This document shows positions 5,516-15,983 of a DNA stretch of 64,000 nt, piece by piece. A model generated the notes under the pieces. It was not told the origin of the DNA. It made no database searches and was given only the letters and a program-made list of their open reading frames with translations. Each line of letters begins with the position of its first letter. The stretch's first letter is position 1. The DNA is from Halobacterium sp. CBA1132 (lineage in GTDB: Archaea > Halobacteriota > Halobacteria > Halobacteriales > Halobacteriaceae), in contig NZ_BCMZ01000001.1 in assembly GCF_001485535.1 (NCBI RefSeq), forward strand, positions 1,054,001 to 1,118,000. Reading direction: 5' to 3'. The translations under genes and the position numbers were made by a program.

Positions 5516-5589
5516 GGGCCGGTAGCTCAGTTTGGCAGAGCGACGGACTCTTAATCCGTCGGTCGCGTGTTCAAATCGCGCCCGGCCCG
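5516..5589 (+). tRNA. tRNA-Lys (anticodon CTT)
   Basis: A 74-nt cloverleaf: acceptor GGGCCGG/CCGGCCC, D-arm GCTC/GAGC, anticodon stem ACGGA/TCCGT with loop CTCTTAA (anticodon CTT), T-arm GCGTG/CGCGC (one G-T pair) with loop TTCAAAT, discriminator G. No intron. CCA is not encoded. Its 3' half is copied 114 bp downstream. Confidence 0.97.
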
Positions 5590-5703
5590 CTTCTGCGACG
5601 AACGAACGTGAGGAGCGAAGCGGGTAGCGATTTGAACCCTATCAGACGCAGCGCGAACGAAGTGAGCGACCGTCTGATTCCGGTTCAATATCGCGCCCGG
5701 CCC
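5590..5703 (+). repeat. tRNA-Lys-derived downstream module (inverted T-arm plus tail copy)
   Basis: Starting directly after the tRNA with CTTCTGCGA, this segment holds an inverted copy of the T-arm (GCGATTTGAACC, 5628-5639), an inverted repeat ATCAGACG/CGTCTGAT (5641-5648 and 5671-5678), and then a direct copy of the tRNA T-loop and acceptor 3' strand (GTTCAATATCGCGCCCGGCC from 5683). The whole can fold as one long hairpin. It could be an attachment-site scar of an integrated element or a tRNA-linked repeat. No gene is seen in it. Confidence 0.75.
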
Positions 5704-5957
5704 CTACTCTAATTATCCCTTTCCAGGGTTCTCTGACACTAACAGCGGCATCTGGGTGTGGTCAGCGTGACGCTCGAACAGCTGACTTACCCCGGTCAGC
5801 CCGTCGTCCAACTCCGCCTCACGCAGTGCCCGAGCACGACGACTCGGGATAGCTGAGCGAGGAGCGCTCTGGACAGGTCTGGTCGCTTTGGAGTGATTCG
5901 TCGGATACTGGGAAAAGACTATACTAACTAAATGGTTAGTTACCATTGGAAACAGCT
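5704..5957. other. Intergenic stretch with SDR promoter and possible gene remnant
   Basis: No intact gene is convincing here. The minus strand has an open frame (5713-5946) whose distal part has haloarchaeal codon use, but whose first part does not. It may be the 3' end of a lost gene, for instance from an element once inserted at the tRNA. The right end is A+T rich and carries the SDR promoter and operator-like repeat. Confidence 0.4.
5923..5940. promoter_or_regulatory. Operator-like inverted repeat before SDR gene
   Basis: ACTAAC-N6-GTTAGT lies 17 bp before the SDR start codon. The same half-sites, spaced by 2 bp, form the palindrome at 8662-8677. A TetR gene lies between them. Binding by that TetR is inferred. 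Confidence 0.55.
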
Positions 5958-6731
5958 ATGAACGGACTAGCAGACAAGACTGCGGTCGTGACAGGAGCCG
6001 GCTCGGGAATCGGACGCGCCTCCGCGCAGCGATTCGCCGAGGAGGGGGCAAATGTGGTCGTCGCGGACATCGACGAGGAGAACGGGCAGGAGACCGTCGA
6101 TTTGATCGAGGACGCCGGTGGCGAGGCGACCTTCGTCGATGTCGACGTGTCCGATGTCGAGTCGGTCGAGCGAATGGTGGATGTCACGGTAGACACGTAC
6201 GGTGGACTGGACTTCGCGCACAACAACGCGGGCATTCTCACGGGGTTCGCGGAGACCACGGACATCGAGGAGGACCAGTGGGACCGACTCGTGGACATCA
6301 ACCTGAAGGGGGTCTGGGCGTGCATGAAGGCCGAAATTCCCGTGATGGAAGAACAGGGTGGCGGCGCAATCGTGAACACGGCGTCAGAGTCGGGTCTCGT
6401 CGGAATGGGCGGGCTGTCCAGTTACTCGGCGAGCAAACACGGCGTCGTCGGGCTCACCAAATCGGTCGCCCTCGAGTACGCGTCGAGAGGAATCCGAATC
6501 AACGCGATAGCGCCCGGGCCGACGAAGACGAACATCCAAGCGAACTCCCCAGACACGGACGTCGACCCGCGGTCGCTTCCGTTCGACACGTCCGCGATGA
6601 CCGACGTCCCGATGGAGCGCGTCGCGGAACCGGCGGAGATGGCTGGCGCGACCGTGTTCCTCTGCTCTGACGACGCGTCGTACATCACTGGCCACACCCT
6701 CCCGGTAGACGGCGGACAGGCCGCAAACTAA
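5958..6731 (+). CDS. SDR family NAD-dependent dehydrogenase
   Basis: A 257-residue classical short-chain dehydrogenase/reductase, standard length. The coenzyme motif TGAGSGIG is at residues 12-19, Asp37 after strand 2 (VVADIDE) favours NAD over NADP, NNAG is at 89-92, and the catalytic set is Ser142-Tyr156-Lys160 (YSASK). The ATG at 5958 is preferred over an in-frame TTG at 5946. Substrate is unknown; probably an alcohol or keto compound. An inverted repeat shared with other genes of the cluster suggests control by the TetR regulator at 7834-8424. Confidence 0.92.
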   Translation: MNGLADKTAVVTGAGSGIGRASAQRFAEEGANVVVADIDEENGQETVDLIEDAGGEATFVDVDVSDVESVERMVDVTVDTYGGLDFAHNNAGILTGFAETTDIEEDQWDRLVDINLKGVWACMKAEIPVMEEQGGGAIVNTASESGLVGMGGLSSYSASKHGVVGLTKSVALEYASRGIRINAIAPGPTKTNIQANSPDTDVDPRSLPFDTSAMTDVPMERVAEPAEMAGATVFLCSDDASYITGHTLPVDGGQAAN

Positions 6732-13905: not shown

Positions 13906-14520
13906 ATGGACCAAGAAAGTTCCCCGGTGGTTCTCGTCGTCGACGACGAGAAGGACCTCGCCGACCTGTTCACCGCGTGGCTGTCCGACGAGTACACGGT
14001 CAGGACCGTCTACAGCGGGCAGGCGGCGCTCGATTCTCTCGACGACTCCATCGACGTCGTGTTGCTGGACCGCCGCATGCCGGACCTCTCGGGAGACGCC
14101 GTACTCACGGAGGTCAGGGAGCGCGGCCTCGACTGCCGGGTGGCGATGGTGACCGCCGTCGACCCGGACTTCGACATCGTGGAGATGGGCTTCGACGCGT
14201 ACCTCACGAAGCCAGTGACGAACGACGACCTCCACGACGTCGTGGAGACGCTGCTGACGCGCAAGCACCACGACACCGCGGTCCAGCAGTACTTCCAGTT
14301 GGTCACGAAGCGCGCCGCGCTGGAGGCGAAGTACGGCGACGACGCCACCAAAGACCCGAAGTACGAGGCGCTGCAGGCCGAAATCGACTCCCTGGAGCAG
14401 GAGGTCGACGCGCTCGCCAGCGAGTTCGACGGCGACGACTTCGAGGTCGCACTCCGTCGCATCGAGCGGGACGCCGGTGAGGACGTCCGCGACGTCGACA
14501 CCGACGGGGGACCGGTCTGA
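13906..14520 (+). CDS. Response regulator with HalX domain
   Basis: A 204-residue protein: a receiver domain (residues 8-120) with acidic pocket Asp13/Asp14, phospho-acceptor Asp55 (LLDRRMPD) and the conserved Lys in LTKPV, then the haloarchaeal HalX domain (about 125-190), which has a coiled-coil-like stretch (EALQAEIDSLEQEVDALASE). It has no DNA-binding domain, so output is likely by protein contact. Its stop overlaps the start of the KaiC-like gene (TGATG), and a histidine kinase follows, making a three-gene signalling operon. Confidence 0.92.
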   Translation: MDQESSPVVLVVDDEKDLADLFTAWLSDEYTVRTVYSGQAALDSLDDSIDVVLLDRRMPDLSGDAVLTEVRERGLDCRVAMVTAVDPDFDIVEMGFDAYLTKPVTNDDLHDVVETLLTRKHHDTAVQQYFQLVTKRAALEAKYGDDATKDPKYEALQAEIDSLEQEVDALASEFDGDDFEVALRRIERDAGEDVRDVDTDGGPV

Positions 14521-15983
14521 TGCCGGGGGTCGAGGACCGGGTCTCGACGGGTATCGACGGCTTGGACACCGTGCTGAACGGCGGGTTCGTTCCGGGTCGG
14601 GCGTACTTGGCGCGCGGCGAACCGGGCAGCGGGAAGACCATCTTCGGCTACCACTACCTGTCGGCGGGCGTCGAGAACGGCGAGACGGTGCTGTACGTGA
14701 ACCTCGAAGAGTCCGTCGAGGACGTGAGGGCGAACGCGGCCGCGGTCGGGTTCGACCTCGACGGCGTGGAGTTTTTGAGTCTCACGCCGGACAGCGAGGT
14801 GTTCACCGAGAGCCAGTCGTACAGTGTTTTCGCGCCCGAGGAGGTGGAGGCGGACCAGTTCAACGAGGCCATCGTCGAGCGCATCGAGGAGTTGGACCCG
14901 GCGCGCATCTTCATCGACCCCATCACGCAGCTCCGATATCTCTCGGGGGACGACTACCAGTTCCGCAAGCAGGTGCTGGCGCTCCAGCAGTTCCTCGGCG
15001 AGCAGGACGGAACCATCCTGTTCACGTCGCAGTCGACGCCGAACAACCCCGACGACGACATCCAGTTCGTCGCGGACGGGACGCTGGACCTCGAACGCAG
15101 CCACGAGGCGCGCACGGTCTCCGTGCCGAAATTCCGCGGGTCGGCGACCCAGAGCGGCGAACACACGTTCCGAATCACCGACTCCGGCGTGAAGGTGTTC
15201 CCGGAGCTACAGCCCGGTGACTACGAGCAGGAGTTCGTCGCTGAATCCGTCTCCGCGGGCGTCCCGGAACTCGACGAACTGCTGCACGGCGGGCTCGAAC
15301 GCGGCACGGTCAGCGTCATCAGCGGGCCGAGCGGCGCGGGCAAGACCACCACTGGCACGCAGTTCATGAAGGAGGCCGCGGGCCGGGGTGAGCGCTCCGT
15401 CGTCTACCTCTTCGAGGAGAGCCGGTCGACGTTCCTCACGCGGTCGGAGGCCGTCGACATCCCCGTCGAGGAGATGATAGAGCGGGGCACGCTCGCCGTC
15501 AGGGAGATGGACCCGCTGGACTTGACCCCACAGGAGTTCGCGAGCATGGTGCGCGAGGAGGTCGAGCAGCGCGACGCCGAAATCGTGATGATAGACGGCA
15601 TCAAGGGGTACAAGCTCGCGCTCGCTGGCGACGACGACACGCTCGTGCGGCGGCTGCACGCGCTCGGTCGCTACCTCAAGAACATGGGCGTGACCGTCGT
15701 CTTCGTCGACGAGGTCGGCCACGTCACGGGTGACTTCCACCCGACCGAAGTGGGCATCAGCTATCTCGCGGACAACATCGTCTTCCTGCGTCACATCGAG
15801 ATCGAGGGGGAGCTCCAGAAGGTCATCGGCGTACTCAAGAAGCGCACCAGCGACTTCGAGCGGACGCTGCGTCGCCTCCAGATAACTGAACACGGCATCA
15901 AGGTCGGCGAACCGCTCACGAACCTCCGCGGCCTCCTGACTGGGACGCCGGAGTTCGTGAACGACGGGGCGTCCGACTCGTAG
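14520..15983 (+). CDS. Double-domain KaiC-like ATPase
   Basis: A 487-residue protein with two RecA/KaiC domains. Domain 1 has Walker A GEPGSGKT (about residues 33-40) and Walker B ARIFIDP. Domain 2 has Walker A GPSGAGKT (about 263-270) and Walker B EIVMIDG. Both look able to bind ATP. In haloarchaea such KaiC-like proteins are found beside HalX regulators and histidine kinases and are presumed signalling ATPases rather than clock parts, since kaiA and kaiB are absent here. Translation is coupled to the upstream regulator by the TGATG overlap. Confidence 0.9.
   Translation: MPGVEDRVSTGIDGLDTVLNGGFVPGRAYLARGEPGSGKTIFGYHYLSAGVENGETVLYVNLEESVEDVRANAAAVGFDLDGVEFLSLTPDSEVFTESQSYSVFAPEEVEADQFNEAIVERIEELDPARIFIDPITQLRYLSGDDYQFRKQVLALQQFLGEQDGTILFTSQSTPNNPDDDIQFVADGTLDLERSHEARTVSVPKFRGSATQSGEHTFRITDSGVKVFPELQPGDYEQEFVAESVSAGVPELDELLHGGLERGTVSVISGPSGAGKTTTGTQFMKEAAGRGERSVVYLFEESRSTFLTRSEAVDIPVEEMIERGTLAVREMDPLDLTPQEFASMVREEVEQRDAEIVMIDGIKGYKLALAGDDDTLVRRLHALGRYLKNMGVTVVFVDEVGHVTGDFHPTEVGISYLADNIVFLRHIEIEGELQKVIGVLKKRTSDFERTLRRLQITEHGIKVGEPLTNLRGLLTGTPEFVNDGASDS

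Follow-up and report, generated by a model that had tools for sequence, protein, structure and literature searches.

Integron attC and the folded attP of CTXphi both present a tyrosine recombinase with two arms and a central crossover region. In the single-stranded attP of CTXphi, two inverted core copies with a short stretch between them fold into the active site; the R-box of attC has the consensus GTTRRRY. The 178-bp repeats at E. coli tyrT, with RtT RNA, are direct repeats of a tRNA 3′ end behind the tRNA gene, and we know of no inverted copies among them. The SNJ2 element of Halovivax has a 13-bp core at a tRNA 3′ end, according to the available part of PMC8371274. In Haloquadratum, SMR-A is about 110 bp long, has inverted termini, makes no target duplication and prefers palindromes, as described in the accessible sections of PMC3119063. 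Here we describe arrays of short units behind haloarchaeal tRNA genes. Their architecture is real and widespread and, as far as the literature searched goes, apparently undescribed: no description of such arrays was found in the PMC literature, including the accessible parts of PMC9668308, PMC9897764 and PMC2841640.

We analysed a 64,000-nt stretch of the genome of Halobacterium sp. CBA1132 (the window; the genome is referred to as G000). On its plus strand, the tRNA-Lys(CTT) gene (5516–5590; ARAGORN; RF00005 match G000:C1:1059516-1059589) ends in a segment, from about 5568 onward, that we call D1, the parental copy. Behind it lies a non-coding unit of 115 nt with inverted repeats, in the order S1, I, S2, D2. 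S1 (5591–5620, plus strand), read from the sequence, is a type A spacer hairpin with a TGCGACGAACGAACGTGAGGAGC core, a type that recurs behind other tRNAs. I (5621–5639, minus strand), delimited by a repeat finder and arm comparisons, is a shortened inverted copy of the T-loop/T-stem region. S2 (5640–5681, plus strand) is a hairpin with a ATCAGACG/CGTCTGAT stem and a CGAAC-GAA-GTGAG loop, identified by the repeat finder, its fold, a covarying stem in relatives and the loop motif. D2 (5682–5703, plus strand), recognized by a 14-nt perfect repeat, is a direct copy of the T-loop and the acceptor 3′ strand.

The repeat finder recovered everything that the original prediction had reported after the tRNA: the direct copy ATCGCGCCCGGCCC (5575–5588 and 5690–5703, 14 of 14 identical, 115 nt apart), the inverted copy (5569–5586 and 5620–5637, 18 nt, 83% complementary) and the perfect 8-bp stem (5641–5648 and 5671–5678). 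S1, itself a conserved hairpin, and the genome-wide extent of the pattern had been overlooked. The 121 nt 3′ of tRNA-Lys fold with −48 kcal/mol, against −35.35±3.34 kcal/mol for 200 shuffles (z=−3.79), none of which folds as well. D2 is followed by the left end, now decayed, of an integrated element (5704–5771, plus strand), homologous by blastn to the DNA right after tRNA-Lys of the congener G010, and by a truncated reading frame (5758–5856, plus strand; VVSVTLEQLTYPGQPVVQLRL...) that, from a comparison of translations, is a remnant of a longer frame at the left end of the G010 element. No integrase fragment was identified inside the window module. The first intact gene past the element remnant encodes a short-chain dehydrogenase (5946–6728; PF13561, E=1.4e-68), and the window also encodes a KaiC-type ATPase (14520–15980; PF06745, E=6.1e-77).

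With a 123-nt segment as the query, we found 19 places in the same genome and matches in 25 of 26 genomes and all 7 genera of the family, the weakest own-genome matches being simply a common intergenic word. Reading 48 loci revealed the same layout behind many kinds of tRNA. A covariance model of I-S2-D (R1), built from 23 modules, matched 288 of 292 haloarchaeal genomes and 75 of 77 genera, with no more than 16 matches taken from any one genome; G034, G070, G141 and G284 gave no match. In a sample of 60 genomes of the phylum, R1 matched all seven that belong to the organism itself or to its order, and matched 2 of the 53 others weakly (E=3.6e-4 and 0.008). An exact-pattern scan of the genome collection returned 20 loci, all haloarchaeal by title, each with a same-strand tRNA 33–192 nt upstream, and in the class-wide R1 search the tRNA lay on the proper side at 30 of 30 loci among the matches listed. 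The word GCGAACGAAGTGAGCG was seen in intergenic DNA of the same genome away from tRNAs (L010–L016); haloarchaeal intergenic DNA seems to abound in palindromes of this kind.

In G000, 29 of 35 R1 matches have a same-strand RF00005 tRNA no more than 1.2 kb to their 5′ side, compared with 0.9% of random places. One of the 29 (G000:C1:2260977-2261931) apparently owes its distance of 954 nt from tRNA-His to an insertion within the module; the end of the inserted stretch reads by eye like a TnpB-type zinc ribbon. Of the six remaining matches, one corresponds to a tRNA-Ala match read in antisense, one follows an intron-bearing tRNA-Met whose unusual T arm is copied exactly by its I, and two follow tRNAs missed by the family search, which we read as Gln and Pro. 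The last two follow protein genes at the 3′ side, and the ends of these genes recur nearby, so the process is not restricted to tRNAs. At these two places (G000:C1:321800-321873 and 460889-460960) S2-type hairpins accompany direct copies of the gene ends, and by eye the genes read like aspS and an enolase-superfamily enzyme.

Downstream of 40 tRNAs of G000 we found inverted copies at 15 and direct copies at 16, and the same search upstream found none of either kind. Given this and the recurrence of the layout across the class, the pattern in the window is not due to chance. We also surveyed tRNAs without selection in four genomes. Both I and D were present at 16 of 42 tRNAs in G000 (D only at 4, I only at 1, neither at 21; this set included the extra loci L232, L234 and L235, fetched as model matches), at 10 of 40 in G010 (3, 4 and 23, respectively) and at 17 of 41 in G220 (5, 1 and 18). 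No tail copies were found at the 30 tRNAs examined, out of 40 listed, in G141; the trait can therefore be missing as a whole. Upstream controls for G000, G010, G220 and G141 gave no D in any genome and 0, 1, 0 and 2 I, respectively. The tRNA-S1-I-S2-D unit is thus a class-wide haloarchaeal family and not a local scar. The suggestion that the segment is a distinct module, to be sought after tRNAs in related haloarchaea, was borne out: the layout recurs there across the class. Absence from close relatives, together with an integrase fragment at the scar, had been named as the outcome that would speak against a module; the module is present in close relatives and class-wide, so that objection falls.

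We compared the orthologous tRNA-Lys arrays within the genus, using letters for the spacer types assigned in this analysis (A, B; a, c). The array reads A-I-a-D in the window, D-A-I-a-D-B-I-c-D in G010, B-I-a-D in G007 and B-I-c-D-B in G011, and is decayed in G018; S1 and S2 turn over between orthologous tRNAs of one genus. In G010 the tRNA-Lys gene (at 1354391) and the array (1326250–1326365) are 28 kb apart, with an integrase match (1326844–1327140) next to the array. The window array matches the G010 array at 89.8% over 127 nt, the G010 copy being outside the element and beyond its integrase, and window positions 5683–5771 match the G010 tRNA-Lys 3′ end and flank at 87.8% over 90 nt (blastn). 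A 28-kb integrase-bearing element separates the G010 tRNA-Lys from an array that is still intact: this array is resident in the host, and its D copies behave like attachment sites. Judging from these alignments, either the element may have entered at D1 in one lineage and at D2 in the other, or the unit may have been inserted between tRNA and element, in which case the insertion would be placed in the lineage of the window; under either history D is a crossover point. In G015, AT-rich DNA follows tRNA-Lys and the array lies farther on, consistent with element insertion ahead of the array.

These arrangements bear on the idea of a plain integration scar, in which D2 is the distal att copy and the rest is eroded element DNA. 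The window locus does resemble SNJ2-type archaeal att sites, where elements integrate: its direct repeat, which takes in 14 nt of the tRNA 3′ end, is close to the 13-bp core described in the available part of PMC8371274, and the left end of an element directly follows D2. However, the unit differs from tRNA att sites in having no element inside, in carrying inverted copies and conserved hairpins, and in persisting through element insertion. S1, I and S2 were seen at neither end of the G010 element, and the layout is present class-wide, G007 and G011 included. A plain scar, already contradicted by an array that is common to relatives and outside the element in G010, is hardly credible, and we reject it. 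The earlier att idea thus holds for the behaviour of the D copies and fails as an account of the array.

The units follow a simple grammar. A tRNA tail of about 23 bp alternates in orientation (D, I, D and so on) along the arrays, so that S1 is the junction of two 3′ ends and S2 the junction of two T-loops. The D-to-D spacing has a median of 130 nt and a range of 83–194 nt (73 intervals, counting only those below 200 nt), and no gene cassettes occur between sites in these intervals. At a tRNA-Gly of another genus about seven units, mostly of 111 nt, stand in tandem. In three genomes the D arms match the local tRNA at 7.9, 7.5 and 8.9 of 12 positions, compared with about 4.6, 4.4 and 4.7 for other tRNAs. 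I resembles the local tRNA at positions 54–63 only and not at 65–72; by sequence, its right arm matches weakly (10 of 13 positions are reached in 8 of 137 cases and in 0 of 137 controls). Pairing between D and I, in the average profile, starts at 0.93, dips to 0.44 at the centre and returns to 0.74 toward the tRNA 3′ end. Compared with a control in which the tail of another tRNA was grafted on, pairing is higher in the arms only (0.74 versus 0.60 at position −3; 0.44 versus 0.50 at position −8). The shape of two helices with an open centre is that of the average profile, and individual modules vary. These structure and arm statistics, like the strand, G-U and loop comparisons below, draw on 249 tRNA contexts, mostly query-like loci or tRNA loci of four genomes. 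Behind tRNA-Gly, -Ser and -Ala of G000 (L068, L092 and L067, respectively) hairpin pairs that end in ...GCTCACT or ...GCTCAGT before CCC break the D copies between T-stem and acceptor, forming a second class of hairpin insert.

The two spacers behave differently. S1 stays mostly with its locus, S2 far less so: among nearest neighbours in other genomes (56 genomes, with G141 left out), the anticodon was shared in 64 of 205 cases for S1 (expected 8.2) and in 20 of 147 for S2 (expected 6.8). A claim from three genomes that S2 ignores tRNA type (same tRNA in 2 of 50, 0.9 expected) is weakened by this threefold same-anticodon excess. The same S2 was found behind different tRNAs and in different genera, and the borders of S2 fall in the T-loop word GGTTCAAATC, common to most tRNAs. 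Because S1 tracks tRNA type more than S2 does, much of the pattern may reflect inheritance rather than movement.

Set against the described systems, the arrays are closest in form to integron attC sites, including those of integrase-less clusters: both are imperfect palindromes that occur in arrays and keep structure while sequence varies, with two paired arms, an unpaired centre and a variable terminal hairpin. Unlike attC, they have a tRNA-tail core, GTTCAAA or GTTCGAA, whose fourth base, C, departs from the R-box consensus; their units are 83–194 bp and hold no cassette genes. Like the attP of CTXphi they fold inverted core copies, but they are chromosomal, stand at tRNA 3′ ends and have no phage found with them. 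The tyrT/RtT repeats differ in that inverted copies are present in the haloarchaeal arrays, and RtT was absent from an Rfam search of eight loci (cmscan, E up to 0.5).

The same search bears on whether the unit acts as RNA. The idea that the tRNA trailer contains a structured RNA, such as an antisense or decoy switch in which I can pair with the tail of the tRNA and is captured by D2, would suit the position of the module on the tRNA strand, the rarity of I without D in G000 (1 of 42) and G220 (1 of 41), and the better folding of the sense strand (by a mean of 2.5 kcal/mol for 218 D-S1-I and 2.15 kcal/mol for 156 I-S2-D modules). In composition-keeping shuffles the sense–antisense difference was slight or absent (−0.36 and 0.14), and the energy difference alone is no evidence for RNA. 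G-U pairs made up 5.1 and 5.0% on the sense strand and 6.1 and 6.7% on the antisense strand; without enrichment on the sense strand there is no RNA signature. In the eight loci no Rfam family except tRNA reached its cut-off; two plastid 5′UTR matches below threshold were antisense of tRNAs. Given also the turnover of S1 and S2 between orthologous tRNAs and the fact that G141 does without arrays, a trailer RNA is very improbable, and the hint that this segment yields RNA or tRNA-end processing products was not borne out.

Pairing in the stems is maintained. At two pairs of the S2 stem, both partners changed in 14 and in 10 of 23 sequences, respectively, and the outer stem pairs are mostly Watson–Crick, with G-T or T-G in 6 cells (three pairs, 118 modules). 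GNA loops closed by C-G are unusually stable in DNA. The motif CGAnC-GNA-GnGAG (C-GNA-G with flanking GA steps) was present in 84 of 156 S2 on the sense strand and in 1 on the antisense strand, and the folding asymmetry in favour of the sense strand coincides with it. Stem changes that keep pairing almost without G-U, arguing from sequence for DNA over RNA structure, together with a one-strand motif, fit DNA structure or hairpin-templated correction better than RNA.

We searched for an enzyme or a mobile source. Integrase matches (PF00589) numbered 8, 4, 7 and 2 in the R1-negative G034, G070, G141 and G284, respectively, and 2, 5 and 8 in the R1-positive G104, G220 and G010; we therefore discarded integrase number as the cause of the arrays, the counts showing no correlation with R1 presence. 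The integron integrase TIGR02249 exceeded its curated cut-off in none of the 292 haloarchaeal genomes, and 219 had weaker matches, which related integrases are expected to give; with a wrong core as well, an integron was rejected. No units were found in GenBank phages or PLSDB plasmids (one blastn each), and no free unit or circle was seen. A viral origin was dismissed: two IMG/VR patterns gave 12 and 0 matches, and the 12 read as chance matches in unrelated DNA. An integrase-like fragment after the last D of tRNA-Leu(TAG) had no Pfam match and was therefore not used as evidence.

That no enzyme correlates with the arrays speaks for the main rival explanation, namely enzyme-free palindrome growth. 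Here nascent strands would fold back at tRNA tails, template switching at GGTTCAAATC would copy hairpin spacers between loci and keep the arms matched to the local tRNA, and the arrays would be neutral by-products of replication. Near-perfect Watson–Crick stems with few G-U are the expected trace of hairpin-templated correction, the S2 borders lie within the shared T-loop word, and the two matches at protein-gene ends indicate that a tRNA is not essential. However, the loop motif is kept on one strand, simple decay would not be expected to leave an unpaired centre between matched arms, and the total absence from G141 amid near-universal presence needs a reason. We regard palindrome growth as a real possibility, if rather unlikely. 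A tiny non-autonomous mobile repeat (a small mobile repeat or REP/MITE type) targeting tRNA 3′ ends and moved by an unlinked transposase or integrase would account for the recurrence of the same S2 in different tRNAs and genera, and the unit spacing resembles the ~110-bp SMR-A, likewise short and with inverted repeats. SMR-A, however, has fixed termini and, in the accessible sections of PMC3119063, targets IS605-type elements and PATEs rather than tRNAs, whereas the arms of the arrays follow the local tRNA without a fixed terminal repeat. We consider a mobile repeat improbable.

The explanation we tentatively prefer, while judging it somewhat short of probable, is that the arrays consist of attC-like recombination sites that fold and have tRNA 3′ ends as their anchor. 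The unit would act at the DNA level: on the tRNA-sense single strand D would pair with I into two short helices with an unpaired centre and an S1 or S2 cap, and by analogy with attC or CTXphi attP the two arms and central crossover region could provide the geometry that a tyrosine recombinase needs. Recombination at D would then admit or release units, and separate integrase-coding elements, at the 3′ end of a gene that stays intact. Speaking for a folded site are features observed directly (the anatomy, the class-wide spread of R1, tRNA anchoring, D arms like the local tRNA, S2 common to loci, compensatory S2 stems and element DNA at D, as with the G010 element), along with the two-arm pairing and the one-strand loop; from these we infer single-stranded folding in vivo, a recombinase as the agent and mobility of the units. 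Against it, no recombinase tracks the arrays, one blastn each of GenBank phages and PLSDB plasmids gave no unit, the right-arm match is weak and 4 of 40 G010 tRNAs have I without D; the scarcity of G-U is also consistent with hairpin-templated correction. The broader proposal of a class-wide haloarchaeal recombination system, with single-stranded tRNA-tail hairpins as sites, is doubtful; in it, dumbbell units of about 110–150 nt (tail-S1-inverted tail-S2) would be inserted at the 3′ ends of tRNA or other genes by a putative recombinase, and every tRNA would thereby acquire an expanding landing pad, open also to integrase-bearing elements.

The arrays stand directly behind tRNA genes and are close to universal in an entire archaeal class. 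Either reading, neutral growth or folded site, predicts unit gain and loss that should be observable in laboratory strains, and G141, G034, G070 and G284 are useful natural negatives. If growth is neutral, the arrays would be a large natural data set on hairpin spread and self-correction in genomes. If they are folded sites, they would be a tRNA-anchored archaeal counterpart of integron sites and would account for the persistence of haloarchaeal tRNA loci as intact hot spots of integration.
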